64,000 nt of DNA from positions 1-64,000 of the forward strand of contig JAEEVN010000001.1 in assembly GCA_016290885.1 (NCBI GenBank), in the 5' to 3' direction. The notes under the pieces were generated by a model. The model was given only the letters and a program-made list of their open reading frames with translations, had not been told where the DNA came from and searched no databases. Below are positions 8,410-40,166 of this stretch, one piece after another. The number at the start of each line of letters is the position of its first letter. Position 1 is the stretch's first letter. The position numbers and the translations under genes are program-made. Source of the stretch: Caryophanales bacterium (GTDB lineage: Bacteria; Bacillota_I; Bacilli_A; RF39; UBA660).

Positions 8410-8420
8410 ATATAAAATAA

Positions 8421-8445
8421 AAAGACTTGTTCAAAGTCTTTTTTT
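8421..8445. terminator. Bidirectional terminator after tRNA-Leu; could also end the minus-strand small-peptide transcript
   Basis: AAAGACTT GTTCA AAGTCTTT TTTT; the minus strand reads AAAGACTTTGAACAAGTCTTTTTATTTT. Confidence 0.75.
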
Positions 8446-8455
8446 ATGCTATTAT
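8427..8455 (+). promoter_or_regulatory. Candidate promoter for a short + strand RNA
   Basis: TTGTTC (8427-8432), 17-nt spacer, TATTAT (8450-8455); predicted TSS about 8463. Confidence 0.45.
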
Positions 8456-8462
8456 TTATTTA

Positions 8463-8535
8463 GAGGAACACTTAATTTAATTGAGTGCCATCCTTATTTA
8501 ATTGGTATGATACTCAACTAGAGTATCATTTTTTT
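8463..8535 (+). ncRNA. Candidate small antisense RNA (about 73 nt), convergent with and overlapping the 30-aa ORF's 3' end
   Basis: Starts at the predicted TSS, 5' near-palindrome CACTTAATTTAATTGAGTG, ends at ATGATACTC AACTA GAGTATCAT TTTTTT. Confidence 0.45.
8507..8535 (+). terminator. Rho-independent terminator of the candidate sRNA; overlaps the stop codon of the 30-aa ORF
   Basis: Perfect 9-bp stem ATGATACTC/GAGTATCAT with T-run. Confidence 0.75.
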
Positions 8536-8618
8536 ATTACTAATACCAGTAAGGTAAGTAGTGATAATATGATTGAAATATACATTAGAAGCTTAATTAT
8601 ATAAACTCTTTTGTTCAT
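8526..8618 (-). CDS. Unannotated 30-aa hydrophobic peptide MNKRVYIIKLLMYISIILSLLTLLVLVIKK; candidate type I toxin
   Basis: ORF read by hand; strong SD AAAGGAGGTGGTGAAATG; single TM with basic ends; below the ORF-track length cutoff. Confidence 0.6.
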   Translation of the reverse strand: MNKRVYIIKLLMYISIILSLLTLLVLVIKK

Positions 8619-8673
8619 TTCACCACCTCCTTTCTAGAAAAAGAGGATGACACTCTAATTAAATGTTCCATAT

Positions 8674-8679
8674 ATTATA
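8674..8679 (-). promoter_or_regulatory. Candidate -10 box (TATAAT) for the small-peptide mRNA; TSS about 8669
   Basis: Minus strand GCGAATATAATATATGGAACATTT; no convincing -35 box seen. Confidence 0.4.
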
Positions 8680-8715
8680 TTCGCAAAAAAAATAAAAATT
8701 CCCCTAGTATGTATA

Positions 8716-13023: not shown

Positions 13024-14778
13024 CTATTCCTCCTCTACTACTTTAATTCCAAGTTCTTCTAATTGTTTTGGTTCAAGTACACTAGGTGATCCCATCATTT
13101 GATCTTGACCAGATGCATTTGGTGGGAATGCTTGAACTTCTCTTAAGTTTGGTTCATCTTGAATAATCATTAAGATTCTATCAATACCAGGAGCCATACC
13201 TCCATGAGGTGGAGCACCATATTTAAATGCAGTAGCAAGTGATGTAAATCTTTCTTCAAGAGTTCCTTTTGGATAACCAACCTTTTCAAATCCTTTTTCA
13301 AGTAATTCTAAATCTGTATTTCTAATAGCTCCTGATGCTAATTCAAATCCATTTGCTACAAAGTCAAATTGGTGTGCTACTATATCTTCTAAGTTAGCTG
13401 ATTCATAGTCTTGTCCATCTAAAACTGGTTTAGAGAATGGATTATGACAGAAATCCCATTTCTTTTCTTTATCATCATATTCAAACATTGGGAAGTCTTT
13501 AATAATAGCAACTTCTATTCTATTTGGATCAATTAAACCTAATTTTCTACCTAATTCATCTCTTATTTGACCAGCAAATTTTTGAGCTACTTTTAAATTC
13601 TTATTAGCTATAAAGAACATAACTGAATTTGTTTTCATATCGAATTCTTTTATTAAATTATTTCTTTCTTCATCACTTAAGAATTTATCTATAGGTCCTT
13701 TTAATGAACCATCTTCCATTAAAGTAATATATCCAATACCTGGCATACCAATAGATGATGCGAAGTCTACTACTTCATTAAACCAACTATTAGGTTTAGT
13801 ACCTATATCATCTACTACTATTACTTTAATAATAGATTCACTAAATGGTTTAAATGTAGTATTTTTAAGTACTTCGGATGCATCTTTAATAATTAATGGG
13901 TTTCTTAAATCTGGTTTATCAGAACCATACATATTCATTGCATCTTTATAACTAATTTGTCTAAATGGTTTTTCATTTACCTTTTTATTACTGAATTTAC
14001 TAAATACATCATAGTAAATATCACTACCTATTTCTAATATATCTTCTTCAGTTACATAACTCATTTCAAAATCTAATTGGTAGAATTCTAAAGTTCTATC
14101 TTTTCTTCCATCTTCATCTCTAAAACAAGGTGCTATTTGGAAATATTTATCAAAACCACCAACCATTAATAATTCTTTATATATTTGTGGTGCTTGTGGT
14201 AATGCATAGAATCTTCCTTTAAATTTTCTACTAGGTACAACAAAGTCTCTTGCACCTTCAGGTGAACTAGCTGTTAATAAAGGTGTTTGAATTTCGGTAA
14301 AACCTAAATCATACATTTTATTTCTTAAGAAATGTAATACTTCTCCTCTTAATTTAATATTCTTATTAACTTCTGGATTTCTTAAGTCTAAATATCTATA
14401 TTTAAGTCTAACTTCTTCATTTGTTTCTTTACTCAAATCTATTTCAAAAGGAATTTGTTCTGCTCTTGAAGATAATAATTCAAGTTTTTCACAAACTACT
14501 TCAACTAAACCTGTAGGTAGTTTTTCATTGATAGTTTCTTCATCTCTTCTGATTACTTCTCCTTCTACTTTAATAACAGTTTCTTTTGAAATACCTTTTA
14601 ATAGACTTTCGTCATGAACTACAACTTGAGTTCTACCATAATTATCTCTTAGGTCTACAAATTGTACTCCTCCATGGTCTCTAATTGTATCAACAAAACC
14701 ACTTAATCTTACTTTTTTACCAATATCACTTTCTCTTAATTCACCACAATTATGAGTTCTAAAAATATTTTCTTTCAT
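13024..14778 (-). CDS. aspS: Aspartyl-tRNA synthetase, probably non-discriminating given the gatCAB linkage
   Basis: Class II motifs: FVPSRKFKGRFYALPQAPQIYKELLMVGGFDKYFQIAPCFRDEDGRKDRTLEFYQLDFEMS; GGMAPGIDRI. Confidence 0.95.
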   Translation of the reverse strand: MKENIFRTHNCGELRESDIGKKVRLSGFVDTIRDHGGVQFVDLRDNYGRTQVVVHDESLLKGISKETVIKVEGEVIRRDEETINEKLPTGLVEVVCEKLELLSSRAEQIPFEIDLSKETNEEVRLKYRYLDLRNPEVNKNIKLRGEVLHFLRNKMYDLGFTEIQTPLLTASSPEGARDFVVPSRKFKGRFYALPQAPQIYKELLMVGGFDKYFQIAPCFRDEDGRKDRTLEFYQLDFEMSYVTEEDILEIGSDIYYDVFSKFSNKKVNEKPFRQISYKDAMNMYGSDKPDLRNPLIIKDASEVLKNTTFKPFSESIIKVIVVDDIGTKPNSWFNEVVDFASSIGMPGIGYITLMEDGSLKGPIDKFLSDEERNNLIKEFDMKTNSVMFFIANKNLKVAQKFAGQIRDELGRKLGLIDPNRIEVAIIKDFPMFEYDDKEKKWDFCHNPFSKPVLDGQDYESANLEDIVAHQFDFVANGFELASGAIRNTDLELLEKGFEKVGYPKGTLEERFTSLATAFKYGAPPHGGMAPGIDRILMIIQDEPNLREVQAFPPNASGQDQMMGSPSVLEPKQLEELGIKVVEEE

Positions 14779-14798: not shown

Positions 14799-15037
14799 AA
14801 AACAGTTATTAATCCCTACAAGGGACGAATAACTGTTAAATCCGTGGTACCACCCAAATTCATCATTATAATAATGACCTTTGATCTATAACGTTAGATA
14901 TACGTATTAACCTACTAATTTCAGTTAATAAACTCCAAGGTGTTCTTTCACAAATCTATCATAATCCATTTTCACCATCTAGGACTCTCTAATATGAATC
15001 GATATGTTACTCGTCCTTTTCTTCGTTTTTGCAACTA
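14799..15037 (-). promoter_or_regulatory. T-box leader upstream of aspS-gatCAB
   Basis: Minus strand AGAGAG, CACCTTGGAGT, CTGAAATTAGTAGG, GGGTGGTACCACGG T-box, terminator AACAGTTATTCGTCCCTTGTAGGGATTAATAACTGTTTTTT. Confidence 0.92.
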
Positions 15038-21800: not shown

Positions 21801-24800
21801 TTATTTCTTTTTCTTTAAGAATATTATTAATCCTACTATAGCACCAACTAATAATGTTATTATTAGTCCATATTTAACTACTACTTTACCTGTTTGAATA
21901 TTTATAATTAATTCAGATTTTGAACTTGCTAAATATTCAATTGTTTCTTGAGGTTTTTTATTAGTAATTATATTGCTACCATAGACAAGTCCATCTTCAT
22001 CTACGAAGAATGTTGCTACATTTATAGTTTTCTTAGGAAGTTCATATCCTTCTGGAGCTTCTACTTCTAAGATTCTATATTGTCCTGGTTCTAGATAATA
22101 TACTGTTGCACTACCATTATTTGTAGTTATTTCTGTTAATTCAGAATTTTCATCTGCACGATATACTAGATTTCCATTACTTAATTCTTCTTTTACTAAT
22201 GATAATGTATTATATTTTTTATCATTATCTAGTTTTTGAAGATAGAATATTGCACCATCCAATGGATTGTTATATTCATCAAATTTGTAGAATGTAAATG
22301 ATGTTGGTTTATTTACTAATGCTTCTCCAGTATCTTGAATTGCTGTTTCATTTTTCTTAATATGTACTAGAGTAAATCTATTATCATCATTTTCTGGTAA
22401 GCTATAGCCTTCTGGGGCTTCTACTTCTTCAATTACATAATATGTATCATATTCTAAATATTCTATTAAAGCTGTACCTTCTTTTAATACAGAAGTTAAA
22501 TCATCACTAATTAAATCTTCTAAATCATTAAAGTCATTAGAATTATATCCTAAACTATTTGGATCATATGAACAATTATCTCCAGAACATGTAGTTATTA
22601 CATCTGTATCAAGCACTGGTCTATATTCATATATACCTTCTTTAATAGTTTTTAGTTTAATTAATTCTTTATCTTGATCTTGTGGTTTTCTATTAGCATT
22701 ATAATTAGTTACTTTATATACTTTAAATTTAGCTCCTCCAAGTAATTCATCAGTATCTGCTTCATTATCACCATCTTTATCAGCATATTTTCTTATTACT
22801 AATGCAGTTGGTTTATTTGGAACTTCTACTTCTTCTACTTCAACAGTATTATTTACTATAGTAAATTCTGTTTCAGCATCTCTACCAATTGGTAAGATAT
22901 AGTTTGTTGGAGCAACTGTTTCAAGTAATACATACTTATATCCTGGATCTGATGGCAAATATCTAAGTACTAATTTACCAGCATTTGGATGAAGTTCTGT
23001 AACTCCAGATTCATTTAATTTCTTATATCTATATACCTCTACTCCATCATCTTCTTGATCACCTTGAATAACTCCTCTATCCATAAAGTTCATTACTGTT
23101 ATTCCTGCTGCTAATCTTTCTTCATCAGTAGAATAATCTGATGGATGACATTCAGTATCTATAGCACATTGATATACTTTAAATGTAGTTGTTTCATCTG
23201 GTATTAAGTAATTATATTTCGAATCTCTCTTTTCAAATATTACTCTTGTTGGAATATTCTTAATCTCTGCAGTTATAGAAGAAGGATTACCCGCATCTTC
23301 TAAAGGAAGAATATATTTAACTACTGGATGACCATTATTATCAAATGGTAATTGATCTCCATAGTTTAAATCTTTATTTAAATAATCAGGTAATACAAAG
23401 TTTTGTTTTGTATCACTTGTTATTTCTTCAATATAATATACTTCTCCTCTTTGTAAGTGAGTTACTTTTATCTTTCCTAATTTAGTATGCATCTCGGTAA
23501 TGACATTATTATCATCTACTGGAATATATCTATATTCTCCAGTATCACATCTATCATTACTATTCTTATTTGATACAAAATTACCATCACTAGAGCATTT
23601 TAAACTTAATATATTTCCATTACTATCTCTTAATACAAATGTCATTGAATCAAATATTTTTAATGATTCATTTTCTATAGATGCTAAATCTTCATCTTGA
23701 TAATAATCGTATAAATCACTCTTTATGAAATTAATTTCTGTAGGTTTATTATCTATTCTAGATGTTAATTCCACATAATTACTTCCATCATCTAGAGTTG
23801 ATGATAATACTGTAAAATCAGTATATGCTTCTGATCCAGATGGTAAATAATATCCATTAGGAGCATCTTTTTCATATAATGAATAACTATATTCACTTGG
23901 TAAATATGCAAGTACTAATACTCCTCTATCTGTTATTAAATCAGATACTTTGTTAGTACTATTATTCTCTTTACTATATTTATAAGTTAATACTGGAGGG
24001 CCTACTGAAGATAAATCATCAGTAAAGTTATCAATATAACCTCTATCTTCAAAGTATACTATTTCTGCACCTTGAGTAGTTGCTCTACAACTAGTAACAG
24101 TCTTAGGACATCTATATACATTAAATGTAGTTCTTGAATCAGGAATTAATTCACCAGTAGTTTTATCTCTCTTTTCGAATACTACTCTTGTAGGTAAGTT
24201 TTCTATCAAATTAGTTACTGATTCAGATGGTGTTGTACCATTATTAGTATCATTTGGTAAAACCGTACTTAAATCATATATTACATAAGGGTGTCCTTTC
24301 CAACTCCAACCACTTGGTATACCACTTGGTTTACTTATATTAGTTGGTAATATAAAGTTTCCTTTAGTATCTGATTTAGTTTCTTCTATATAGTATTTTT
24401 CATTTCTATATAGATTAGTTATTAACATCTCACCATTCTTTGTGTGTAATTCAGTTACATTATTACCTGATGTTGTACCGTCACCACCTATAAATCTATA
24501 TTCACCATCTGCCGTCTTTTTAAGAGTTACAATGTTACCATCTTTATCTCTTAATACAAATGTCATTGAATCAAATATCTTATTACTTGATCCTAATGCT
24601 TCAGCATCTGTAGAACTATAGTATTTATAAATATCATCTTTTCTAAACTTAATCATTGTAGGATAATCAATGATATTTTTATTATTAGCATTTGCAGTAG
24701 TAGTATTTGTTGGTACTACATCTATTTCAGTTTCTGCAAGTGCACCACTCACATTATAATATCCATCTGGTGCATTTGTTTCTACTACTACATATTTATA

Positions 24801-27800
24801 ATTTGTTGGTAAGTATTCTAATGTTAATTTACCTTTAGTACCTTCAGTTACTAAGTTAAGTGATGTTACTCCATTACCAGATTGATTTAATAATGCTGGA
24901 TATACAGTTTCTGAACCATATACTCTTGGAGATCCAAATTTAATCTTTCTTCCTGTTGATGTTGCTTGTGTACATTTTGATACTGTTTTTTCACATGCAT
25001 ATACTTCAAATGTAGCAGTTTGTTTTTTATTTGTTCCTTCATGAATATCTTCACTAGTTCTATTATTTTTCTTTGATAATGATATTCTAGTAGGTAGATC
25101 ATCTATTACACCAGTAGTTTTTGGAGTAACAGAAGTACTATCACAACACATTTTATTATTATCTGTAAATGGTACTATATATTCTACTGAAGGATGAGTA
25201 CTTGGTAATGTAAATACTGTATTAGCAGGTACTTCTACTTCTTCAATAGTATATTTCTTACCTCTACATAAATGAGTTATTTTAATTTTTCCACCACAAG
25301 TATTTATATCATAAGTTAATTGATTTTTTTGTTCAGTAGTTAATAATGATTCATCTGATACATATCTATATTCAGCTATACCATTATTAGTATTACAAGT
25401 TCCTGTATTGCCTACTTTTAATAGTTTTATATAATTACCATTTTCATCTTTAACTCTAAATTTAATCTTATCAAATGCATTTATTTCATCAATAGATTCA
25501 AATTTGACTGTTGATGTAGGATCTGCATAACTATAAATATCTCTCTTAGTAAATGTAATACTTGATGGAGTATTATTTAATCCTTTAGATACTTTTCCAC
25601 TTGATGTACATGATGTTGCATTTGGTGAAGAACAATTTGTTATTGTAAATTGATAATCACTAGTATTTGTATATCCTGGATATAAATATCCACTACAAGG
25701 AGTAGTTCCAGAGCAAGATGAACAAGATGTATCACAACATACTTTCTTCTCTTTTACATAATATGTTCCCTTTGGTAAATGATATACTTTAAATTTTCTA
25801 TTATTATCTAATTGTAAATCTGTTATAGCAGTCCCTGATGTTCCATCAACTGTATTACCTGCATATTCATAGACACCATCAGATGTTTTAACAAATGATA
25901 TTAAATTACCATTAGTATCAGTTATATTAAATGATAATTTCTTTAATTCGTTTGTAGTAATACTATTCCAGTTTATACCATTAATAGTGGTATCTCCACT
26001 AGAAACTGTTTTAGTAAATTCAAATTCTGTTTTATAGTTTACTAATTTGTTTGAATTAGTCATTGCAGCAAATGCATTACCTGAAGTTATACTTAATGTT
26101 TTACTACTTCCAAATGTATGATTTTGAGCAGAATCTATTTCTTCTACAGTATATGTTCCTGATGGCAACCCACTTACACATACTTGACCAGTCATATTAA
26201 TACTTGTTGATCCAGCTGCTCCTGATGTCATAACTGTTCCAGAAGTATTAGCTCCTGTATATACATAACATGCTTTTTGTGCATTTGCAGAATCACTTTG
26301 AGTAGTTGGATTATTTACTGTTATATATTGACCTGCACTATTTTTAACTTTAAATGTTGCACCATTAATTAATGTAGATCCATTTTCAGTAGTTTTATAC
26401 CAGTTTATTACATATTTTCTATCAGTAAATACATAATTTGTATTTGTATTATAAGTTTTATTAGCAACTGTTGTTCCATCAGACGCTACTGCGCTATCAG
26501 ATAAACATGCAGTTCTTGCTGCTGCTGCATTAGAATATTCTTTTAATTGAATTGCTGCTAATGCTCTACTAGATGTTACTGTTGAATATCCATCTGGAGC
26601 TTTAGTTTCAGTTACTGTCCAATTCCCTGCTGCTGAACTATCACCCAAGAAGAATGATGTAATTCCATTTGAAGTAGAATAATCAGTACTATTTTTATTA
26701 ATTGTTATACTTCCCTTTGTAGCAGTAAATTCTGCTCCTGTTAAAGCATTACCTGTTGAACTATCAGTCTTCTTTACTTTAAGACAGTAATATTGTTTTG
26801 TATCACTCTTAGTTACTGGGTTATTACAAGTAGAACCTTCTGTTAAACTACTTGCTGATACTGTTACTCCTGCACTATTATCATTCCAATATCCTGATGG
26901 TGCAGATGTTTCTGATAATGTATAATTTTGATATTTTAATCCTGTAAATGTTGTTATACCACTTGCATTTGTTGTTCCTGTATGTACATCTCCTGCTGCT
27001 CCTGTTAATGTGAATCCTGCACTAGCAAGTCCTGAACCAGTTTCAGAATCTGCTTTCTTAACTGAATAACAATAACTCTTTTGAGTATTAGTTAATGTTG
27101 GAGTGCTATCACAAGTTCCATCACTATTAGAATCAGTTGCAGTTATAGGAACACATCCTGAACTATATGTATATTTATTTGTTAATAAGTTCTCTGATCC
27201 TAAAGCAAAAGATGTTTCTTTAACATAATATGTTGTATTTTGAGTTAAATTATTAAATGTTACTGTTCCTGTAGAACCATTTGTTAAATTAACTGTAGCA
27301 TTTTGTGATGATACTAAAGTGGAACAACTAGAATCACTATATAATCCTATGGTTGTAGTAGCATCTCCTCCATCATTATTAAATGCACTTATTGTTTTAT
27401 TAACATTTAGATTACAGTTAGCACCTTCCCAATATACTTTGAAATATGCTACACCTGCTTGTCCTCCCCAACCTCCGAGGTTACCAGATTGAGTTAATGT
27501 TCTAACACTTAATAATAACCATTTATCTGCTCTATGATCTTGTTGAATCTGTATTCTTACTTTTATTCCTTCAGATTCAGGTTTACCTATAATATTACCA
27601 CCACTTTGCCAATCATATGCTGCAGATTCATATGGGTGAATACATTGCATTAAGATATATTCATCTGGATCAGCGAAGTTCATATAAAGAGTTCCATCAC
27701 CATTTCTTCTAGCAAAACCTGTATTTATCATATATGGGAATACTTCGTTTGTAGAAGCTTGATGATAAGCATCATCACTATAATCCCAATAAATAGCTTT

Positions 27801-28856
27801 ATTATATGCGAATGTATCTGCATTTGCAGATCTACCTTGAGAGCCATAGTTTACACATAAAGGTTCTCCTCTAAAATAAACCCCTGTTGTACCATCAGTA
27901 CAATAGAAGAAATTATCTGTGCTTCTTCCCCAAGAAAGTGTCATAGCATCAGTTGTATAATATGCACCATATCCATTATCAGCATCATATAATAATTGAG
28001 TTGGTTCTTCTAATAATCTATAAGAATTAGCTTTTGATATATCTGCTGGATTAATTGCAAATACATTTTTAATTATATTATTACCTAATTTTATATCGAT
28101 CTTATTAATTAATATTGTAGGCATATTAATAACTAAAGTATCTGTTAATTTATCATATCCATATGATTCTTCATTTAATCTTTCATCAGAACCATTTATA
28201 TAAATATATATATTATCTTTAGATAAATTACTATTAACAAATCTTGATAATGGAATCTTTGTTTCTAAATCCATTAAATCATTAGAAGCCGTATTATTAA
28301 ATGTTACTAATTTCTTAACACTATAATCTGTTTCTAATTTACTTATTTCTTCATATGTTAATAATGTTTCAAGTTCTGCTTGTACAATAATACGATTATC
28401 CTTATCTGCTTTTTCATAAAAACTAAATGGAATTTTTAAAGTCTTTGTTTTTTTATCATAAGAACAACCTTCGATTGGTTCACCATATAAGTTATTCATA
28501 GCAAACATTGTATCAGTTACTCTATTAAGCAATTTTTTATTTGTAAATTTACTTAGATCTACATATAAATAATCCCCATCTTTAGTAAGAGGTACATAAT
28601 GTGCTGCACTATATATAACATCATCTATATGATTATGAACAGTATCATCAATAGTAGCATCTTCACTCATTTTATCTTTATCTCCGATTAAATAAGTTAC
28701 TTTCATCATATATGTATCATCATATTTAACTAATTTAGAATTAAAACTATTTAAATCTATAAAATATATAGTTGAGAAAACTAGTATTACTAATAATACT
28801 AGTGCTATTAATACTTTATATTTATTATATAATCTCTTTATCATATGAGCCTCCAA
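21801..28856 (-). CDS. Giant (2351 aa) Cna-B/SpaA-type repeat adhesin with C-terminal IQTG-TM-KKKK sorting-like signal
   Basis: Many prealbumin-like units with ETKAPDGY / EVEAPEGY E-box motifs; N-terminal TM; C-terminus INIQTGKVVVKYGLIITLLVGAIVGLIIFLKKKK. Confidence 0.88.
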   Translation of the reverse strand: MEAHMIKRLYNKYKVLIALVLLVILVFSTIYFIDLNSFNSKLVKYDDTYMMKVTYLIGDKDKMSEDATIDDTVHNHIDDVIYSAAHYVPLTKDGDYLYVDLSKFTNKKLLNRVTDTMFAMNNLYGEPIEGCSYDKKTKTLKIPFSFYEKADKDNRIIVQAELETLLTYEEISKLETDYSVKKLVTFNNTASNDLMDLETKIPLSRFVNSNLSKDNIYIYINGSDERLNEESYGYDKLTDTLVINMPTILINKIDIKLGNNIIKNVFAINPADISKANSYRLLEEPTQLLYDADNGYGAYYTTDAMTLSWGRSTDNFFYCTDGTTGVYFRGEPLCVNYGSQGRSANADTFAYNKAIYWDYSDDAYHQASTNEVFPYMINTGFARRNGDGTLYMNFADPDEYILMQCIHPYESAAYDWQSGGNIIGKPESEGIKVRIQIQQDHRADKWLLLSVRTLTQSGNLGGWGGQAGVAYFKVYWEGANCNLNVNKTISAFNNDGGDATTTIGLYSDSSCSTLVSSQNATVNLTNGSTGTVTFNNLTQNTTYYVKETSFALGSENLLTNKYTYSSGCVPITATDSNSDGTCDSTPTLTNTQKSYCYSVKKADSETGSGLASAGFTLTGAAGDVHTGTTNASGITTFTGLKYQNYTLSETSAPSGYWNDNSAGVTVSASSLTEGSTCNNPVTKSDTKQYYCLKVKKTDSSTGNALTGAEFTATKGSITINKNSTDYSTSNGITSFFLGDSSAAGNWTVTETKAPDGYSTVTSSRALAAIQLKEYSNAAAARTACLSDSAVASDGTTVANKTYNTNTNYVFTDRKYVINWYKTTENGSTLINGATFKVKNSAGQYITVNNPTTQSDSANAQKACYVYTGANTSGTVMTSGAAGSTSINMTGQVCVSGLPSGTYTVEEIDSAQNHTFGSSKTLSITSGNAFAAMTNSNKLVNYKTEFEFTKTVSSGDTTINGINWNSITTNELKKLSFNITDTNGNLISFVKTSDGVYEYAGNTVDGTSGTAITDLQLDNNRKFKVYHLPKGTYYVKEKKVCCDTSCSSCSGTTPCSGYLYPGYTNTSDYQFTITNCSSPNATSCTSSGKVSKGLNNTPSSITFTKRDIYSYADPTSTVKFESIDEINAFDKIKFRVKDENGNYIKLLKVGNTGTCNTNNGIAEYRYVSDESLLTTEQKNQLTYDINTCGGKIKITHLCRGKKYTIEEVEVPANTVFTLPSTHPSVEYIVPFTDNNKMCCDSTSVTPKTTGVIDDLPTRISLSKKNNRTSEDIHEGTNKKQTATFEVYACEKTVSKCTQATSTGRKIKFGSPRVYGSETVYPALLNQSGNGVTSLNLVTEGTKGKLTLEYLPTNYKYVVVETNAPDGYYNVSGALAETEIDVVPTNTTTANANNKNIIDYPTMIKFRKDDIYKYYSSTDAEALGSSNKIFDSMTFVLRDKDGNIVTLKKTADGEYRFIGGDGTTSGNNVTELHTKNGEMLITNLYRNEKYYIEETKSDTKGNFILPTNISKPSGIPSGWSWKGHPYVIYDLSTVLPNDTNNGTTPSESVTNLIENLPTRVVFEKRDKTTGELIPDSRTTFNVYRCPKTVTSCRATTQGAEIVYFEDRGYIDNFTDDLSSVGPPVLTYKYSKENNSTNKVSDLITDRGVLVLAYLPSEYSYSLYEKDAPNGYYLPSGSEAYTDFTVLSSTLDDGSNYVELTSRIDNKPTEINFIKSDLYDYYQDEDLASIENESLKIFDSMTFVLRDSNGNILSLKCSSDGNFVSNKNSNDRCDTGEYRYIPVDDNNVITEMHTKLGKIKVTHLQRGEVYYIEEITSDTKQNFVLPDYLNKDLNYGDQLPFDNNGHPVVKYILPLEDAGNPSSITAEIKNIPTRVIFEKRDSKYNYLIPDETTTFKVYQCAIDTECHPSDYSTDEERLAAGITVMNFMDRGVIQGDQEDDGVEVYRYKKLNESGVTELHPNAGKLVLRYLPSDPGYKYVLLETVAPTNYILPIGRDAETEFTIVNNTVEVEEVEVPNKPTALVIRKYADKDGDNEADTDELLGGAKFKVYKVTNYNANRKPQDQDKELIKLKTIKEGIYEYRPVLDTDVITTCSGDNCSYDPNSLGYNSNDFNDLEDLISDDLTSVLKEGTALIEYLEYDTYYVIEEVEAPEGYSLPENDDNRFTLVHIKKNETAIQDTGEALVNKPTSFTFYKFDEYNNPLDGAIFYLQKLDNDKKYNTLSLVKEELSNGNLVYRADENSELTEITTNNGSATVYYLEPGQYRILEVEAPEGYELPKKTINVATFFVDEDGLVYGSNIITNKKPQETIEYLASSKSELIINIQTGKVVVKYGLIITLLVGAIVGLIIFLKKKK

Positions 28857-29634: not shown

Positions 29635-32600
29635 CTACTTTCTCTTCTTTAAGAATATTATTAGTCCTACTATTAAACCTATAACTATAGTTATTATTAG
29701 ACCATATTTAATTACTACTTTACCTGTTTGAATATTAATAATTAATTCTGCTTTATCACTAGCTAAATATTCAACTGTATCAGATGGTTTCTTATTAGTA
29801 ATTATATTACTTCCATAAACAAGTCCATCATTATCTACAAAGAATGTAGCTACATTTATAGTTTTCTTAGGAAGTTCATAACCATCTGGAGCAGATACTT
29901 CTAAGATTCTATATTGTCCTGGTTCTAGATAATATACTGTAGCATGTCCACCTATAGTTGTTATATCTGTTAATGTTGATGCTGAATCTGCTTTATATAT
30001 AATATCACCATTTGATAAAGTTTCTTTAGAAACAGTTAATGTATTATATTGTTTTTCATTGTCTAATTTTTGTAAGTAGAATGTTGCTCCATCAAGTGGA
30101 GTATTATATTCATCAAATTTGTAGAATGTAAATGCCGATGGTTTATTTACTAGTGCATCTCTTGTATCAATTATTTCTGTTTCATTTTTCTTAATATGTA
30201 CTAGAGTAAATCTATTATCATCATTCTCTGGTAAGCTATAACCTACAGGAGCTTCTACTTCTTCAATTACATAATATGTATCATATTCTAAATACTGAAT
30301 TAAAGCTGTACCTTCTTTTAATACAGAAGTAATATTATTTCCAGAAGATTCTATTAAATCATCTATATTTTCCCATTGACTAGGATCATATCCTAGACTA
30401 TTTGGATTATATGAACAATTATCTCCAGAACATGTAGTTATTATATCTGTATCAAGAACTGGTCTATTTTCATAAATACCTTCTTTAATAGTTTTTAATG
30501 AAATTAATTCTTTATCTTGATCTTTTGCTTTTCTATTAACATTATAATTATTTACTTTATATACTCTAAATTTAGCACCACCAAGTAATTCACCATTATC
30601 AGCTTCATTATCGCCATCTTTATCTGCATATTTTCTAATTATTAAAGCTGTTGGTGAGTTTGGAACATTTACTTCTTCTACATCTACTGTAGTATTAACT
30701 ACTGTAAATGGAGTTTCAGCTAATTTTCCAGTTGGTAATACATAATTTACTGGAGCAACTGTTTCAAGTAATACATAATTATAACCTGATTGTAAGTATC
30801 TAAGTACTAATTTACCTGTACTTTCAGGATGTACTTCAGTTACATAACAGTTAGTTGTTACAGTATCAGTACATGCTACTTTACTCTCAGCATCGCTATC
30901 ACTCATTGCTCTATATACTTTAGTTCCTGCATCCTCTTCATCATTTGTAATGATACTCTTTGGTTCAAACTTAATAAGTTTCATACCAGCAGCTTCTCTT
31001 TCTGCTACTGTAGAGTAAGAACTTGGATTACATAAACTATCTTTTGGACATCTATACACTTCAAATGTAGTTGTCTCATCTGGAATTAAATAATTATATT
31101 TTCCATCTCTCTTTTCAAATGTTACTCTTGTTGGTTTATCATTAATTATTGCAGTTTTACTAGTTCTTTGTTCTTCTTCATTAGTAGAACATGGAACTTC
31201 AAAACATACTTCAGGATTTAATGTACCTTGTTTTTCCAATACATATACTGAATCATCAGGTACTCTGATTTCTTCGAATGTATATGTTTCACCACGACAT
31301 AATCCAATTAATTTAATATGTCCACCACAAGCATGTAATGTTTGTGTGATTGTTAATCCATTACTATTAACATGATAATTAAATACGTTTGGATCAACAT
31401 CACTTGGTAATTGTAATCCTGGTACATATCTATAGATACTATAATCAGAATCACTAGTGCATGTAGTACTTGATCCTCCTACATATACAAAGTTTAGATA
31501 ATTACCATTACTATCTTTTACTTTAAAGTCTATTCTATCAAAATCGCTTCTTTCTTTAGCATTTTCAAATTCAACACTTGATTCAGTAGAGTTTTGAATT
31601 CTATCATTATCTACTATATCTGCTTGATTTTGATAATTATATAAATCTTTCTTAGTAAATGTTATTTCTGTTGGTATATTTGTTAATGATTGAACTTCAA
31701 CACCTGCATCACTTGAACAAGAACTTGTATTTTGTTTAGCTGTATCGCTAGAGCAATCATTAATTGTAAATGAATATGTATTAGAACTATAATCTGGGGA
31801 ATAATATCCAATACATTCACCACTAGATGATGTAGTTCCTGCACATGTAGGTGCTGTTGATGGTCTACTACTTGGATTTGCAATTGTTCCATAACCGCCA
31901 TTACCTAATTGGCAACTAGAAGTATCAATTTCTTTAATTGTATAAGTACCTTTTGGTAAATGTTTAACATTGATTTTTCTATTTGAATCTAAATGTAATA
32001 CTGTTATGTTATTACCAGATCCACCTTGATCTACACCATTAGATCCATATTCATAATGACCAGAGGAAACTTCTTTAACTGGTACTACATTACCGTTTGA
32101 ATCATATATACTGAATCCTATTTTCATTAACTCTTCAGTAGTCATATCACTTAATGAAACTGTCTTAGTTACTCCACCAATAGTAACAGTATATAATGTA
32201 TCATCTTCTTGTGATCCATCTACATTTGATACTTTCTTAGTAAATTCAAATTCAGTTGGATAGTTAATTATTTTATTAGCATTAGTCATACTAATAAATT
32301 TATTACCAGCTGTTATATCTAAAGTACTATATGAACCAAATGTATGATATTCTGGTGCTTTAATTTCTATAACTTGGTATGTGCCTTCTGGTAAACCAGC
32401 AACACATACTTCTCCAGTCATAGATATACCAGTTGATCCACTATCACCAGATACCATTACAGTACCTGTGCTTGCAGTTCCTGTATATCTATAGCAAGCT
32501 TTTGTTGTACCAGTAGAATCTGTTTGAACTGCTGGTGCATTAGTAACTGTTATAAATTGACCAGAACTATTTTTAACTCTGAATTCTGAACCATTTATTA

Positions 32601-35031
32601 ATGTTGATCCATTTTCAGTAGTTTTAAACCAATTTATTATTATCTTTTTATCTTTAACAACATAATTGTTATTACCATTATTTGAATTATATGTTTTAGC
32701 AGCGATTGTTGTTCCATCATATGCTTCTGCATTATCTGTGAAACAAGCAGTTCTTGCTGCCGATTCATTAGCATATTCTTTTAAAGCAATAGCTGTTACA
32801 GTATGACCATTAGGATCTGCTGTATATCCATCTGGAGCTTTAGTTTCAGTAACTACATAATCTCCTGATTTAGAACTATCACCCAAGAAGAATGATGTAA
32901 TTCCATTTGATGTATTATAATTAGCACTATTTTTATCTATTGTTATATTACCTTTAGTTGCTCTAAATTCTGCTCCTGTAAGAGTTTCTCCTGTATCATA
33001 ATCCACTTTTTTAACTTTAGCACAGTAATATACCTTTGTATCTGTTTTAGTTACTGGGTTATTACAAGCAGACCCTTCAGTTAAACTACTTGCAGATACT
33101 GTAGTACCATTACCACCATTATCATTCCAATAATCAAGACTACCATTTCCATCTAAATCTGCTGGATTAGCAGTAGTTTCATATAATGTATAATCTTGAT
33201 ATTTTAATCCTGTAAATGTTGCTATACCATTAGTAGCATTTACTGTTTGATCATAGCCTTCTCCTACTAATCTCCAAGTAGTATTATTAACAACAGTATT
33301 ATTATTCTCTTTATCAACTTTCTTTATTGAATAACAATAACTTCTTTGAGTATTAGTAATATTTAATGTCTCTTCACAGACCTTATCTTCATCTGCATCA
33401 GTTATAGTTACTGCCCTACATCCAGAAGAATCACCATATCTACTTGTTAATAAATTTGTTGATCCTAAAGTAAATCCTGTTTCTTTAACAGAATAAGTTT
33501 GATCTAATCTTAAATTTGTAAATGTAGCAGTTCCTGATGCTCCATTTGTTAAATTAACATCAATTGTTTTTGTTTGCACTGGGCTTCCTGAACAATCTGC
33601 ATTTCTATATAAACTTAATGTAGAAACTGCTGTTCCGGTATCATTATTAAATGTATTAACTGTTTTACTTGCAGTAAAATCGCAGTTATTACCTTCCCAT
33701 ACAACCTTAATATAAGCTAAACCTATTTGTGTTGCTACACCTATTCTTTGACCCCATTCATTTCTACCATAAGTATCAATTTTTAAGATCATGTATCTTT
33801 CATCTCTATTTATAGCTTGAACAGTTACTCTAAGTTGGATATTAGCAACTCCATCACTATGTTCAGTATCATGGTTAGAACATGCTAAGATTATCCATTG
33901 GCTTGCATAATCAGGATCAATTGATAATCCTGCAGTACCGATAAATGACATTCTAGCTAGGAAAGGAATTTCTCCTTTTATATCCTTAGCTGCAGACATA
34001 TTAACATATCCACCATCATATGGGAAATATGAACGATACATACTTGCATATGTTCCACACCAGTCGCCACCATCTGTAGCAGTACCATTAGTACATATTC
34101 TAAAGCGGCTATAATCTGACCAATATGAACTACCAGTATTAAAATCTGTATATTCTGTATAGTGTTTTGACCCAGATGTCCAAGAATCACCAGGTTCTTC
34201 AGAAAGTTTAAATTCATACATGTTAGCATATGTATAATTAGCATATGCAAATACATTTTTAAATATATTATTACCTATTTTAATATCAACTTTATTAATT
34301 AATATCGCTGGTATTCCTATAGATAAAACTTTAGTATTATTATCATAAGAAAGGAAATCTTTATCAGCTGGTTTACTTGAACCATTTACATAGGCATAAA
34401 TATTATCCATTGATAAATTACCATTTACATAATTTTCTAAAGATATCTTTGTTTCTAATTGGAATAATTCATTTTTTTCTTTTCCAGAATAAGTTATTAA
34501 TTTCTTAACACTATAATTTGTTTCTAGATTTCTTAATTGTTCTTCTTTTAATAATGATTCTATTTCTACTTGTACTGGAATTCCTTCATTATTATTTTCA
34601 TAATAACTATATGGGATCTTAAGAATTTTAGTATCTTTATCATAAGAACATCCATCGATTAATTCAGCATATACATTATGCTTTGAATAGACAATATCTA
34701 CTACTTCATTAAGGAGAACTTTATTTGTAAAATCTCCTAAATTTGCATATAAATAATCTCCCTTTTTAGAAAGAGGAATTACTTGATCTGCAAAATATAA
34801 AATAGAGTCTGGATCATCTACTACAGTCTTATCTATAGTAGTGTTTTCATCTAATTTATCTTTATCACCTATTAAATATGAAACTTTTAATAAATATTTA
34901 TCATTATAATCAACTAATTTCGAGTTAAATCTGTTTAAATCTATATAATATACAACTACTAAAGCTAGTATTAATAATAATACTAGCGATAATAGCAATA
35001 TTTTCCTTTTCTTAAATAAATTTTTTAACAT
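29635..35031 (-). CDS. Giant (1798 aa) Cna-B/SpaA-type adhesin, paralog of 21801-28856
   Basis: Same N-terminal domain (YLIGDKDKLDENTTIDKTV), multiple Cna-B-like units, C-terminus INIQTGKVVIKYGLIITIVIGLIVGLIIFLKKRK. Confidence 0.88.
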   Translation of the reverse strand: MLKNLFKKRKILLLSLVLLLILALVVVYYIDLNRFNSKLVDYNDKYLLKVSYLIGDKDKLDENTTIDKTVVDDPDSILYFADQVIPLSKKGDYLYANLGDFTNKVLLNEVVDIVYSKHNVYAELIDGCSYDKDTKILKIPYSYYENNNEGIPVQVEIESLLKEEQLRNLETNYSVKKLITYSGKEKNELFQLETKISLENYVNGNLSMDNIYAYVNGSSKPADKDFLSYDNNTKVLSIGIPAILINKVDIKIGNNIFKNVFAYANYTYANMYEFKLSEEPGDSWTSGSKHYTEYTDFNTGSSYWSDYSRFRICTNGTATDGGDWCGTYASMYRSYFPYDGGYVNMSAAKDIKGEIPFLARMSFIGTAGLSIDPDYASQWIILACSNHDTEHSDGVANIQLRVTVQAINRDERYMILKIDTYGRNEWGQRIGVATQIGLAYIKVVWEGNNCDFTASKTVNTFNNDTGTAVSTLSLYRNADCSGSPVQTKTIDVNLTNGASGTATFTNLRLDQTYSVKETGFTLGSTNLLTSRYGDSSGCRAVTITDADEDKVCEETLNITNTQRSYCYSIKKVDKENNNTVVNNTTWRLVGEGYDQTVNATNGIATFTGLKYQDYTLYETTANPADLDGNGSLDYWNDNGGNGTTVSASSLTEGSACNNPVTKTDTKVYYCAKVKKVDYDTGETLTGAEFRATKGNITIDKNSANYNTSNGITSFFLGDSSKSGDYVVTETKAPDGYTADPNGHTVTAIALKEYANESAARTACFTDNAEAYDGTTIAAKTYNSNNGNNNYVVKDKKIIINWFKTTENGSTLINGSEFRVKNSSGQFITVTNAPAVQTDSTGTTKACYRYTGTASTGTVMVSGDSGSTGISMTGEVCVAGLPEGTYQVIEIKAPEYHTFGSYSTLDITAGNKFISMTNANKIINYPTEFEFTKKVSNVDGSQEDDTLYTVTIGGVTKTVSLSDMTTEELMKIGFSIYDSNGNVVPVKEVSSGHYEYGSNGVDQGGSGNNITVLHLDSNRKINVKHLPKGTYTIKEIDTSSCQLGNGGYGTIANPSSRPSTAPTCAGTTSSSGECIGYYSPDYSSNTYSFTINDCSSDTAKQNTSSCSSDAGVEVQSLTNIPTEITFTKKDLYNYQNQADIVDNDRIQNSTESSVEFENAKERSDFDRIDFKVKDSNGNYLNFVYVGGSSTTCTSDSDYSIYRYVPGLQLPSDVDPNVFNYHVNSNGLTITQTLHACGGHIKLIGLCRGETYTFEEIRVPDDSVYVLEKQGTLNPEVCFEVPCSTNEEEQRTSKTAIINDKPTRVTFEKRDGKYNYLIPDETTTFEVYRCPKDSLCNPSSYSTVAEREAAGMKLIKFEPKSIITNDEEDAGTKVYRAMSDSDAESKVACTDTVTTNCYVTEVHPESTGKLVLRYLQSGYNYVLLETVAPVNYVLPTGKLAETPFTVVNTTVDVEEVNVPNSPTALIIRKYADKDGDNEADNGELLGGAKFRVYKVNNYNVNRKAKDQDKELISLKTIKEGIYENRPVLDTDIITTCSGDNCSYNPNSLGYDPSQWENIDDLIESSGNNITSVLKEGTALIQYLEYDTYYVIEEVEAPVGYSLPENDDNRFTLVHIKKNETEIIDTRDALVNKPSAFTFYKFDEYNTPLDGATFYLQKLDNEKQYNTLTVSKETLSNGDIIYKADSASTLTDITTIGGHATVYYLEPGQYRILEVSAPDGYELPKKTINVATFFVDNDGLVYGSNIITNKKPSDTVEYLASDKAELIINIQTGKVVIKYGLIITIVIGLIVGLIIFLKKRK

Positions 35032-35609: not shown

Positions 35610-38600
35610 TTATTCTAATATAATGTTATGAGTTGATATTCTAATTACTGGTCTTACTTGTAAACTAGTTTCAACTGTAATATCCTTACTAAATCCATTT
35701 GTTCCTTGTACTGGAAGAACACTTGAATTTGATGTCATAACATATTTTGCTAATGAACTAGTATCATAACTATTATTTAATACCCCATATTCATTATATG
35801 TAGTATCATTGGCAGTAGCATATACTGCATCCATTAACCAGAAGTCTCCATTTAATAAGAAACTTGAATCTGTTAAATTATTAACTAAATTATTAAATTC
35901 TGCTGCAGTAAGTAATCTTACTTTAGAAGTAGTATAAATATTTCCTGCACAATTTGGTGCATCAACTACCCCACCATTTGCACTAGGATTAAATAATCCT
36001 GATGCATCATCGCATATATTAAATCCTATTAGTTTTGATGAATCTATACGTGTTGATTCTAACCAATTATTATTTAAATATCCATTGATTGCTGAAGTAC
36101 TCCATTTATATACTCCATTGTTATGAGCCATAGCAGTTTGATTAGCATCTGCAAGTAATGTTAATATTTGTTCATTTCCATCTGGAGCAACTCCTATTAC
36201 ATGGAAATTAACACCTGCATATCTTAATGAATCTCCTACAGCATATTGATCGTCATTAACATATTCCTTGTCAGCAACATTCTTAATAACTGGTATGTAT
36301 TCAGTTATTTCAGCGATACTAGCAGTATTTATGAATGCTCCTGCTTCATCTCTTGCTGGTAAGAATAATACTATTTGTAAGTATACTGTTTCTCCAGGAT
36401 TAATTAATGTATTTTCTAGTGTTCTATTACCAATCATTCCATCTACTTCGAACCATCCAGCATTTTCAGGATAATTCTTATCAAATATAAATCCATTAGG
36501 TATATCTTCTTTAACTAGATTAACATATCCAGCTTTATTAGAATTGTTTGTAATAGAAATTCCATAATATACTTTTGCAGTATATCTATTTGGATTTAAT
36601 ACACTTATTGATACTGTAGATAAATTATTATAGTTACTTGTAGTAATCGCACCATTATTAGTTAAATCTATTCTAGTTATATATTTATCCATTATAAATC
36701 CAAAAGTATGTTTAGGTTGTAATCCAATATCCATATTAGAAATACTATTAACTGGTGGATATAACACTAATCCTTTAGAAGTTTCTGATTTATCACTAAT
36801 TTCTACTGTACCATCAGTATCTATTAAATATGCATCAGAGTCTTTATTAACATCTTCAGTAGCATATCTAAGAGCTAAATCATATTTATTAACATCATAT
36901 TTTGCTCTTATTTTATATCTACCTTTATCTAAGTTAGCAAATTCATATTTACCATTTTCATCAGTAACAGTTTCTGCTACATTCTTTAATACACCATCGT
37001 TTGTTACTTTATATAGTGTAACTGGTACATTATTAATATATGTTTCATTACCATCTCTAACACTATCTCCAGTATTATCTAAGAATACAACACCAGATAT
37101 AGTTCTATTTATAACTGAAGCTTCTATTATATTCGAAGAGTTTTCACTAGATGTTGCTGTATATCCATAGAATCTATTATTATATTTATCTGAAGCTTTA
37201 TTATCTTTTGTTTTTAGGCTAACTACTATTTCTCCCATATATGAAGCATCTTGGATAGAAATATTTGTTATTTTTATACCTGTAATACCATCAATAAATT
37301 CATTTCCTATATTTCCACAGCTTTCCCAAATATTTTCATTATCTGCTGTTATTTTAGAAGGAACTTCTTTAGTACATAATAAGTTTTCTAATCCTACAGT
37401 TTCTGATGTTACTTTAACTGAATAACTACCAGTAAAGTTAGATCCATTTTCATCTCCTGTATATGGAAGAATATTTATTAATGTATAATCATTAACAGGT
37501 TCTCCTACATTGTTATAAGCATTTAATACATAATCAATAGTACCATTCTTTTCAATTAACGATCCAGAAGCACCAACAGATTCTGTACCAATTACTTCAT
37601 TAATACCAGTTCCATAAATACTAAACTTAGCATTTCCACCAACTGTTCTATCATATTCACCATTGATATTTTCTCCATAAGGATAACTTTCAACAGTTAA
37701 TTCAACAGCTTTTCCTGATAAAGTTGGAGATAATTTAGCTTTGAAATAAATATCATTTATTTTCATATTAGCTTTTATCTTATCACCAGAAGTAATTATT
37801 ATATATTCTAATCTTGTATAATTATCATTTATTTCAACTGTTACTGGTTTAATTAGATCATCATCAGGAATATAAATTAAACCTTTTGGAAGAATTACAT
37901 TAGCTTTTACTAACTTGATATACCAAGTATCATCTGCTCCTATATTCATTCCATTATCTACTAATGATGTTTCTACTTTATAAGTAATAGTTTCATTATT
38001 AACAGTTCTATATTTAGTTTTCATTGAACCATCACTATTTTTATTAGTAACACTAATGTTTTGTTTTAATGAGAAACTAACAATACTTAAAGTATCTCCA
38101 ATATATTGTTCACTATAAGCATTTTTAATATAGTTATCAGCTGATATAGCATTATTATCTGCATCAGTTATATTCTTTATTTGTGGTGCATAATAATATA
38201 GTTTTGAATCATAATCTGAAGTAGAAATCATAGTAGTTGCTTGATATGTTTGTGTTACATCAGGCACATTTCTAACTCTTACTTTTATAGTAACTACAAC
38301 TTCTGCTCCATCTGGTAAAGTTACTCCTTCTTTAGTTTGAACAATAACTTTACTTATTGGAATTTCAGTTTCTACTCCATCAGTTATACTAGCAGCATCA
38401 TCTATTTTATTAAATGTTTCTTCGACACCATCTACTGCTTTAATACATGGTCCACCATATAAGTTTTGAATTTGATCTCTATTTAAATATGCTAAATTAT
38501 ATCCAGAACATACTCCTGCTAAAGTTTTATCATTATCAGAAAGTTTTGTAGTGGATACATCGTTTAATTCATATAATGAACTATCATCAAATGTTCCTGA

Positions 38601-40166
38601 AACGAATTTAACTTCAAAATCATCTTTAGAAATATTACTGCATTCAGTTTTACCACATTTAATCTTTATACTTACATCATCTGTTTCATTATATGGTAAT
38701 ACTCTATATGCATATGTATCAAACTTAGATACTTCTTTTAATGTTGCTTTTCCTGAAGTTTTATTAGTTTTAAATTTAGTTATATATTTAACTATTGTTC
38801 CTTTAGAAACAGATCCTCTTCCATTAATTGTTAATCTTGCCACTTCATTTTCATCATAGAATGCAGATGATGTTAAAACATCAATATTTGGATCATCACT
38901 TTCTATAGAACCACTTACTTGTTCATATGTATTTTGAATTGTTTTAGTTCCTATAGGTGTATTATTTTCATCATATAAAGTAATTGTATTGTTAATAGCA
39001 TTTTGTCCATCTCCATCTAATCTAGGTGAGAAATTAGTTAGAGCAACTGTTGCTATATAGAATCCATCTACACCTGAATTATCAGCGTTTAATGATGGAT
39101 TATTTAATAATTCAAATCCAGATATTTTAATTATATAAGTATTGCCTTCTTTAGTAACTACTGCATTTCCTGGTTTTTTAATATATTTACTTGGTTCTCC
39201 AATACTAGATGTACTATATGGTAAAGCTCCTTGTACTGATCTAATTCCATCTGTTACTTCTACTCCATATAATCTTATCCAGTTTTCATTAGAGATTGCA
39301 TCTCCTAATCCATCTTGATCAAATGTTGCTTTTATAGTTATTTCATCTTTCGGATAATAAGATCCAGGTATAATTCCAGTATTTAATTTTATTCCTAAAA
39401 GATAAGTAATAAATCTACCATCTTTTTCATCATAATTAGCAGATTGAGTAAATGTATTTTCTCCAACTAATGAATATGTTTCATATACTGGTGCACTTGA
39501 TACTATTGTAGGCATATAATTAGCAGGTCCTACTGAAGCATATGCCCCATCATACGAATAATAATAGTTAGTTTCACTTGCTTCATTATATCCAAGTACT
39601 ACTGGTTCATCATAATTATTTTCATCAACATCAAATGTAAATGTTGGATGTATTTCATATCCATTAGGTGCATTATAAACATTTAATGTTACAGAATAAT
39701 TTGTTGATTCAAATGAACTATTATCTCTAATAACACATAGTCCTGTATTATCACAATTGTTTTCATCAAAAGTTACATATTTTTTATCATCACCATTTAA
39801 TGTAATTCTTAAATTAACTTTTACATCTTCAACATCATTTGTTTCATCAGATGAATCTTTTACATCAAATGTGAAATTATATTTAATCTTATCAAAAGAT
39901 TTAACTAATATGTTATCTTTACTACTATCTTTTGAAGCAGTATAACTATTAGTACAATTCTTTCCTTCATTATCACATGTAATTACTAATCCATCATCGC
40001 TATCAAAATTAGTACCTGTTTCAATCGAAGTCATAGTAATGTTACTAATAACTGCATTATCTATATTAGCTCTTGCTATCTTATAGATAATAAAACTTCC
40101 TCCTAGTAATACAATTAAAATTGCTAAGTATATAGCTATTTTTTTGTTCTTATTTTTACTTTCCAT
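35610..40166 (-). CDS. Large surface protein (1518 aa) with SdrD_B-like domain and C-terminal DUF6273-like domain
   Basis: ISGVVFLDNTGDSVRDGNETYINNVPVTLYKV...DENGKYEFANLDKGRYKIRA; C-terminal YAVGDSLRYAGVNFHVIG...YLNNNWL; N-terminal TM. Confidence 0.8.
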   Translation of the reverse strand: MESKNKNKKIAIYLAILIVLLGGSFIIYKIARANIDNAVISNITMTSIETGTNFDSDDGLVITCDNEGKNCTNSYTASKDSSKDNILVKSFDKIKYNFTFDVKDSSDETNDVEDVKVNLRITLNGDDKKYVTFDENNCDNTGLCVIRDNSSFESTNYSVTLNVYNAPNGYEIHPTFTFDVDENNYDEPVVLGYNEASETNYYYSYDGAYASVGPANYMPTIVSSAPVYETYSLVGENTFTQSANYDEKDGRFITYLLGIKLNTGIIPGSYYPKDEITIKATFDQDGLGDAISNENWIRLYGVEVTDGIRSVQGALPYSTSSIGEPSKYIKKPGNAVVTKEGNTYIIKISGFELLNNPSLNADNSGVDGFYIATVALTNFSPRLDGDGQNAINNTITLYDENNTPIGTKTIQNTYEQVSGSIESDDPNIDVLTSSAFYDENEVARLTINGRGSVSKGTIVKYITKFKTNKTSGKATLKEVSKFDTYAYRVLPYNETDDVSIKIKCGKTECSNISKDDFEVKFVSGTFDDSSLYELNDVSTTKLSDNDKTLAGVCSGYNLAYLNRDQIQNLYGGPCIKAVDGVEETFNKIDDAASITDGVETEIPISKVIVQTKEGVTLPDGAEVVVTIKVRVRNVPDVTQTYQATTMISTSDYDSKLYYYAPQIKNITDADNNAISADNYIKNAYSEQYIGDTLSIVSFSLKQNISVTNKNSDGSMKTKYRTVNNETITYKVETSLVDNGMNIGADDTWYIKLVKANVILPKGLIYIPDDDLIKPVTVEINDNYTRLEYIIITSGDKIKANMKINDIYFKAKLSPTLSGKAVELTVESYPYGENINGEYDRTVGGNAKFSIYGTGINEVIGTESVGASGSLIEKNGTIDYVLNAYNNVGEPVNDYTLINILPYTGDENGSNFTGSYSVKVTSETVGLENLLCTKEVPSKITADNENIWESCGNIGNEFIDGITGIKITNISIQDASYMGEIVVSLKTKDNKASDKYNNRFYGYTATSSENSSNIIEASVINRTISGVVFLDNTGDSVRDGNETYINNVPVTLYKVTNDGVLKNVAETVTDENGKYEFANLDKGRYKIRAKYDVNKYDLALRYATEDVNKDSDAYLIDTDGTVEISDKSETSKGLVLYPPVNSISNMDIGLQPKHTFGFIMDKYITRIDLTNNGAITTSNYNNLSTVSISVLNPNRYTAKVYYGISITNNSNKAGYVNLVKEDIPNGFIFDKNYPENAGWFEVDGMIGNRTLENTLINPGETVYLQIVLFLPARDEAGAFINTASIAEITEYIPVIKNVADKEYVNDDQYAVGDSLRYAGVNFHVIGVAPDGNEQILTLLADANQTAMAHNNGVYKWSTSAINGYLNNNWLESTRIDSSKLIGFNICDDASGLFNPSANGGVVDAPNCAGNIYTTSKVRLLTAAEFNNLVNNLTDSSFLLNGDFWLMDAVYATANDTTYNEYGVLNNSYDTSSLAKYVMTSNSSVLPVQGTNGFSKDITVETSLQVRPVIRISTHNIILE

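Follow-up and report, generated by a model that had tools for sequence, protein, structure and literature searches.

Between positions 8465 and 8669 of the window, i.e. the whole stretch of 64,000 nucleotides that was analysed, two inverted repeats enclose a small open reading frame, and the question is whether these repeats matter as DNA or as the ends of an RNA. The first-pass annotation had proposed that they place the same element at both predicted RNA 5' ends, and this holds: the plus-strand copy GGAACACTTAATTTAATTGAGTGCCATCC lies at 8465-8493, the minus-strand copy GGAACATTTAATTAGAGTGTCATCC at 8669-8645, and each is preceded by a promoter-like sequence that is kept in the homologs. In the 205-nt stretch read on the minus strand, the first 25 nt and the last 29 nt are the two repeat arms. 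Read as mRNA, the arms form a single 24-bp helix of -30.5 kcal/mol, interrupted by one bulge in the leader and by one of 5 nt in the 3' arm. Against a shuffled remainder of the transcript the best site for the leader averages -10.4 +- 2.2 kcal/mol, and no shuffle was as strong as the real helix (0/2000). The 205-nt RNA as a whole folds at -67.8 kcal/mol versus -32.9 +- 3.9 for dinucleotide shuffles (z = -9.0), and in the fold of the minus-strand transcript the leader (8669-8645) pairs with its own 3' UTR (8493-8465). We call this long-range helix the clamp; its 5' arm is the mRNA leader (8645-8669, minus strand) and its other arm the 3' UTR segment at 8465-8493 (minus strand), both assigned by folding and covariation. 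The first part of the leader can alternatively form a local 5' hairpin. A third, partial copy of the repeat element is found in a terminator stem at 8507-8529.

The conservation of the clamp was followed in two sets of homologs. In 34 homologs aligned by sequence alone (set A2), 93.3% of the cells of the 23-pair long-range helix are standard pairs, as against 32-46% when the columns are slid by 1-3 positions. The same helix has 14 doubly changed pairs compared with 6.2 in shuffles (0/500) and a covariation score of 0.328 compared with 0.189; the shuffle controls take no account of relatedness, so the conclusions rely on the slid columns, on the further set of homologs and on the wobble test described below. 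The second set (A3) comprises 93 distinct further sequences, a few loci of which overlap A2. Here pairing in the two helices of the clamp amounts to 91.9% and 97.2%, 16 of the 23 pairs are doubly changed, and over the whole structure this is true of 53 of the 64 pairs versus 29.5 when shuffled, although these counts lean towards the model since the A3 alignment was fitted to the covariance model. An unguided scan by mutual information over all 21,528 column pairs placed the clamp pairs 16-231, 25-222 and 26-221 within the top seven. The swaps themselves are conspicuous: the clamp block CUACC/GGUAG is replaced by CAUCC/GGAUG and also by pairs of the CGUCC type, and as this block lies outside both local hairpins, the swaps are explained by pairing of the leader with the 3' UTR alone. 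In some copies the clamp is weak by prediction (inner helix 0.00 in L031 and L033). The pairing of the inverted repeats is a real and conserved RNA structure, beyond chance, and the two repeats look like the ends of one peptide mRNA selected for head-to-tail pairing.

The strand under selection can be read from the mismatches. A DNA palindrome, or copying from arm to arm, predicts equal frequencies of G.U and A.C. Read on the mRNA strand, the clamp mismatches are 82 G.U to 16 A.C in the first set and 220 to 16 in the second, so the mRNA strand is what selection acts on. In other words, covariation and strand-specific wobble both give strong support to the suggested pairing between the leader and the 3' UTR of the same mRNA, a fold like that of hok or aapA mRNAs. 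The terminator stem (G.U 3, A.C 53) and the 5' hairpin of the putative small RNA (sRNA) on the opposite strand (G.U 10, A.C 45) run the other way in the same reading, i.e. their mismatches are G.U on the plus strand, which points to selection in the sRNA. The local hairpin of the leader again shows the mRNA-strand bias (G.U 150, A.C 7), though this hairpin follows in part from the other two helices. Among the sequence evidence, these opposite biases are the strongest for the existence of two RNAs and for which helix belongs to which. A palindrome kept at the DNA level, be it a regulator site at both promoters or the result of gene conversion between the arms, was rejected on the ratio of 220 to 16.

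Candidate start and end signals are present for both putative transcripts. The promoter assigned to the peptide mRNA, GGGGAATTTTTATTTTTTTTGCGAATATA (8676-8704, minus strand), has SigH-type spacing, is conserved in sequence and ends just ahead of the leader; the identical sequence precedes all five copies in the window's own genome as well as radC, topA, dnaG-rpoD and others. In the window's genus this promoter has the form GGGGAATT-N13/14-GAATA, and in other genera a sigma-A-type TTGTTT-N17-TATAAT is found. The likely mRNA terminator (AAAGACTTtgaacAAGTCTTTTTATTTT; 8412-8441, minus strand), proposed from its sequence, would be common to the tRNA-Leu gene on the plus strand. In most homologs from other genera (e.g. 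L037, L042 and L048) the clamp helix ends with GGGAAC/GUUCCC and is immediately followed by a U-run on the mRNA strand; there, the long-range helix could double as the mRNA terminator.

On the plus strand, an extended -10 box of the form TGnTATTAT (TGCTATTAT, 8447-8455), conserved in the homologs, lies upstream of the other arm and is the predicted sRNA promoter, to which other genera add a -35 of the TTGACA type. The pattern TGnTAnnAT occurs in 96% of 92 homolog loci versus 7% in shuffles; many of these loci were found by a pattern lying downstream, and 34 unselected loci were also compared. The predicted antisense sRNA is about 71 nt long (8465-8535, plus strand) and consists of a 5' hairpin, a linker and a terminator (fold z = -4.5, with the strand bias given above). 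Its intrinsic terminator with T-run (8507-8535, plus strand, stem 8507-8529) is supported by sequence and wobble bias, and the T-run is the complement of the last two Lys codons of the peptide (AAA AAA). The antisense RNA thus appears to have a promoter and a terminator of its own, the former conserved and the latter selected on the sRNA strand. Other genera have an extra 5' hairpin in the sRNA (CAAGGAAACUUG) together with an A-rich linker.

The SigH-type promoter set (AGGGGAATT-N-GAATA) has 26 matches in the own genome versus one for the reversed pattern. These promoters precede the five peptide genes, radC, a dinD/BRO-like gene, topA and dnaG-rpoD, and also a UvrD-like helicase, two ABC transporters and a SpaA-like surface protein. 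A gene for a SigH-like sigma factor adjoins rlmB (L091). Taken together, these genes may form a regulon for DNA repair, or one resembling a competence regulon, within a reduced genome.

The open reading frame itself (8526-8618, minus strand) encodes MNKRVYIIKLLMYISIILSLLTLLVLVIKK, followed by a stop codon. The product is a small, hydrophobic, toxin-like peptide of 30 residues that ends in lysine; the homologous peptides are mostly 30 aa long (27-33) with a C-terminal IKK or similar. The frame is under coding selection, i.e. codon position 2 changes least and the synonymous fraction of single-site changes is 0.44 versus 0.23 expected, and further covarying RNA hairpins lie inside it. No match above noise was found in Pfam, NCBIfam, PHROGs or PDB, and the Pfam and NCBIfam searches gave no family match to the hok or the bsrG/SR4-txpA/RatA toxins. 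The peptide is probably a membrane toxin. In one copy (L030, 1523-1720) a frameshifting deletion cuts the peptide to 23 aa (MNKRVYIIKLLKYISFILSLPYW), so this copy is either decayed or tolerated. A second class of loci (L115, L120, L124, L163, L173, L097 and others) combines this RNA architecture with a peptide that looks unrelated, begins M-x-KKDFLI and resembles MNKKDFLILSLIILIFLLVLLLFIVLI; the RNA frame may carry exchangeable peptides.

The predicted sRNA overlaps the end of the reading frame (8526-8535), the stop codon and the 3' UTR, i.e. the two genes have a convergent layout with overlapping 3' ends, and its 5' part nearly copies the mRNA leader. Pairing with its antisense target, the 3' UTR, is predicted at -113 kcal/mol. 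The annotation had also pointed out that the repeat is nearly palindromic, so that the sRNA could pair with the leader; such a duplex is possible but weak, -16.4 versus -30.5 kcal/mol for the leader with the 3' UTR. We therefore dropped an action of the sRNA on the leader because of the weak duplex; the palindrome is better explained as the selected 5' hairpin of the sRNA (the 10 to 45 bias). Between clamp and terminator stem lies a linker (8494-8506 on the mRNA strand, 11-20 nt in homologs) whose predicted unpaired probability is 0.58 in the mRNA and 0.60 in the sRNA, which makes it a candidate toehold. Within the own genome, the leaders of the copies on the window's contig (C45), C52 and C47 pair with 3' UTRs of their own group at -18 to -31 kcal/mol versus -6 to -15 for those on C5 and C14, and cognate sRNA:mRNA pairing (-112 to -128 kcal/mol) far exceeds non-cognate pairing (-26 to -79). 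Pairing within the genome is thus predicted to fall into two specificity groups, window/C52/C47 and C5/C14.

The Shine-Dalgarno (SD) sequence of the peptide gene is GGAGG at 8630-8626 on the minus strand, with the ATG at 8618. It is predicted to be held in a hairpin (8626-8646, minus strand) in which CCUCUUU pairs with AAAGGAGG, and this holds for the full-length, the 3'-UTR-deleted and the sRNA-bound mRNA alike; the mean predicted unpaired probability of the SD is 0.20, 0.13 and 0.12, respectively. Over the homologs, about 80-90% of this hairpin's helix is paired. The clamp ends immediately short of the anti-SD, and over the family its extension into the anti-SD hardly exceeds that in shuffles, so clamp and SD hairpin can stack without competing. 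Masking of the ribosome site by the clamp itself is not borne out by the folds: the SD is masked by a separate, adjoining local hairpin, whether the 3' UTR is present or not. Sequestration of the SD by a long-distance interaction, a feature of hok and aapA, was not seen in the folds, in which SD access and the extent of the clamp were examined. The predicted folds give no explanation of how translation would be switched on.

Building on the clamp and its arms, the SD hairpin, the coding selection and the conserved promoters and terminator, we propose, with a probability of roughly 0.7, that the locus is a chromosomal type I toxin-antitoxin-like module, in which the mRNA is clamped end to end and the sRNA displaces the leader from the 3' UTR. 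A minus-strand mRNA, from about 8669 to 8412, would encode the 30-residue peptide, and a convergent sRNA would be made from about 8465-8535. The full-length mRNA would close by placing its leader on the 3' UTR, with the clamp sitting on the local hairpin that hides the SD; such a closed fold with a hidden SD would leave the mRNA translationally quiet and both of its ends protected. Since the sRNA is complementary to the 3' UTR and almost matches the leader, the two would compete for the 3' UTR. First contact would be made at the single-stranded linker after the terminator stem, the likely toehold, and by branch migration the sRNA would then displace the leader. The outcome would be a duplex of about 70 bp, a substrate of RNase III, and a freed leader that folds locally while the SD stays hidden. 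A gene for RNase III is present in the own genome, inside the window at 1204-1908. Toxin would be made only if the sRNA were lost or outnumbered and, in addition, the clamp were opened or trimmed.

The clamp might instead be a stability element only, in a 3'-overlap type I module like BsrG/SR4 that has neither a hok-like inactive state nor strand displacement; here the sRNA would act simply by forming a duplex that RNase III degrades, and the clamp would shield the mRNA from exonucleases. It is established that RNase J and 3' exonucleases are hindered by a 5' hairpin and by closed ends, and the predicted access to the SD, nearly the same whether the 3' UTR is present or not, fits this reading, as does the 3'-overlap layout shared with bsrG/SR4 and bsrE/SR5 (PMC7430163). 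We nevertheless consider it unlikely, since the hairpins of the coding region and the clamp covary as one fold, beyond the needs of a simple end cap, and since an sRNA that is a near-copy of the leader follows from the clamp, which makes competition for the 3' UTR unavoidable.

Less probable still is a regulatory module without a toxin, in which the peptide would be a membrane regulator within a SigH-type regulon and its level would be tuned by the antisense RNA. The mRNA promoter of the genus does match the SigH-type set found before radC, topA, dnaG-rpoD and the dinD-like gene, and the peptide lacks a match to a toxin family. Yet a small hydrophobic peptide, a convergent antisense RNA and a masked SD are typical of type I toxins, as are multiple diverged and tandem copies and a frameshifted one, and the promoter type differs in other genera. 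We regard as very improbable a switch in which the anti-SD is drawn off the SD by the 3' UTR, where some copies have an SD-like GAGG, so that the clamp activates translation and the sRNA, by taking the 3' UTR, shuts it off. Two copies (L034 and L041) can indeed lengthen the clamp by three pairs into the anti-SD, but the family-wide clamp ends short of it, adding the 3' UTR brings SD access from 0.13 to no more than 0.20, and this 'anti-anti-SD' mechanism was rejected as no extension into the anti-SD is conserved. Hardly any credence is left for a 205-bp MITE-like element with terminal inverted repeats spread by transposition, which the annotation had offered as its alternative and which requires target-site duplications and near-identical, repeat-bounded copies: a search of the genome did find five copies with inverted ends, but they are only 69-85% identical, no target-site duplication is seen in their flanks, the homology extends past the repeats on both sides into two different promoters, plasmids, phages and viral contigs gave no match, reading frame and RNA structure are under selection, and the excess of G.U over A.C is not predicted by DNA-level palindromes.

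The proposed toxin-antitoxin-like module is best described as a putative hok/aapA-like mRNA clamp joined to a bsrG/SR4-like 3' overlap, and by sequence it is a member of neither group. With hok/Sok (plasmid R1, enterobacteria) it shares a small hydrophobic peptide, an antisense RNA, a structured coding region and the conserved, covarying closure of the 5' and 3' mRNA ends, the last of these also being a property of AapA. It differs from hok/Sok in that the sRNA covers the 3' UTR and stop codon and not the leader, in that the SD is hidden by a local upstream anti-SD and not by long-distance pairing, in that no mok-like overlapping frame is seen, and in its unrelated peptide and its host (Bacilli versus Proteobacteria). 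Fst/par of enterococci (RNAI/RNAII) likewise has a pair of short, convergent transcripts that carry repeats close to their 5' ends. The par repeats are direct and give two RNAs with complementary sequence in that region; the repeats of the module are inverted, so that its two RNAs start with almost identical sequence. Unlike IsoA, which is complementary to the 5' part of the AapA mRNA, the sRNA of the module is complementary to the 3' part of its mRNA and is similar to the leader. In other respects AapA/IsoA of Helicobacter and relatives is alike, with a long-distance 5'-3' interaction, local SD-masking hairpins and a small peptide with a basic C terminus (PMC6733600). In both hok and aapA the full-length mRNA is inert, and 3' trimming activates it (PMC6733600).

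Among the Bacillus pairs bsrG/SR4, bsrE/SR5 and txpA/RatA the likeness lies in the convergent sRNA over the mRNA 3' end, the expected RNase III route, a peptide of about 30-60 aa and weak access to the SD (PMC7430163). The 3'-overlap antitoxins of B. subtilis act via RNase III on the duplex (PMC7430163). A 5'-3' clamp of the present kind is not described for them in the text consulted (PMC7430163), and those pairs are mostly prophage-linked and have no sequence relation to the module. In timP/TimR, too, mRNA structure sets the translation of a small membrane toxin and the antitoxin RNA remodels this structure, but that structure is a pseudoknot, the antitoxin acts on the 5' UTR and there is no end-to-end clamp (PMC11228461).

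If the reading is true, a hok-style end-to-end clamp arose in a lineage of Bacilli with the opposite (3'-overlap) antisense layout, and the logic of the clamp extends further than one would expect from the proteobacterial examples. It is conceivable, though we put it forward only tentatively, that the sRNA stands for a new class of antitoxin RNA, a mimic of the leader that replaces the leader strand in the clamp by toehold-led displacement; in the same tentative scheme, clamp and U-run may terminate the mRNA in many genera, and in the window's genus the module would have been placed under a SigH-type promoter that DNA-repair and replication genes also use. As more than 100 diverged copies are aligned, the structure is directly testable and natural compensatory variants are supplied; two cognate specificity groups inside one genome are likewise available.

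The distribution was followed from the own genome outwards. The genome of the window (1.11 Mb, 52 contigs) carries five copies that have diverged from one another, located on contigs C45 (the window), C52, C47, C5 and C14. Of 147 genomes in a search of relatives, 55 had matches, some of which were short and confined to the promoter or flank. A covariance model (R1) detected the element in 197 of the 291 genomes sampled from the family and in 113 of 150 genera, frequently in several copies per genome and also in tandem. The tandem modules are spaced by a few hundred to a few thousand bases (L033, L049, L086, G207:C14 and G622:C6). Outside the family matches are rare: a class-wide sample gave 34 genomes with matches out of 395, 33 of the 34 inside the family, and a phylum-wide sample 10 out of 392, 9 of the 10 inside the family. 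The named records with a related sRNA sequence are metagenome-assembled genomes of uncultured Bacilli and 'Tenericutes', including Candidatus Ventrenecus. Searches of plasmids, phages and viral contigs gave no matches, and an origin from a phage or plasmid was dropped on this account. In Rfam, sub-threshold chance matches only were obtained and no family covers the element. A literature search for RF39 together with toxin-antitoxin found nothing, its coverage being incomplete and the taxon name not proven. The RNA pair looks like a new and widespread one of the toxin-antitoxin type in uncultured gut Bacilli, present in about two thirds of the sampled genomes of a large family with reduced genomes.

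Elsewhere in the window, a T-box leader (RF00230, 125.9 bits) is found at 14818-15032 on the minus strand, upstream of the ORF at 13024-14778. Also on the minus strand, 21801-28856 encodes a protein of 2351 aa with seven SpaA-type domains, adjoined by very large ORFs at 29635-35031 and 35610-40166; together they probably form a cluster of giant surface proteins.
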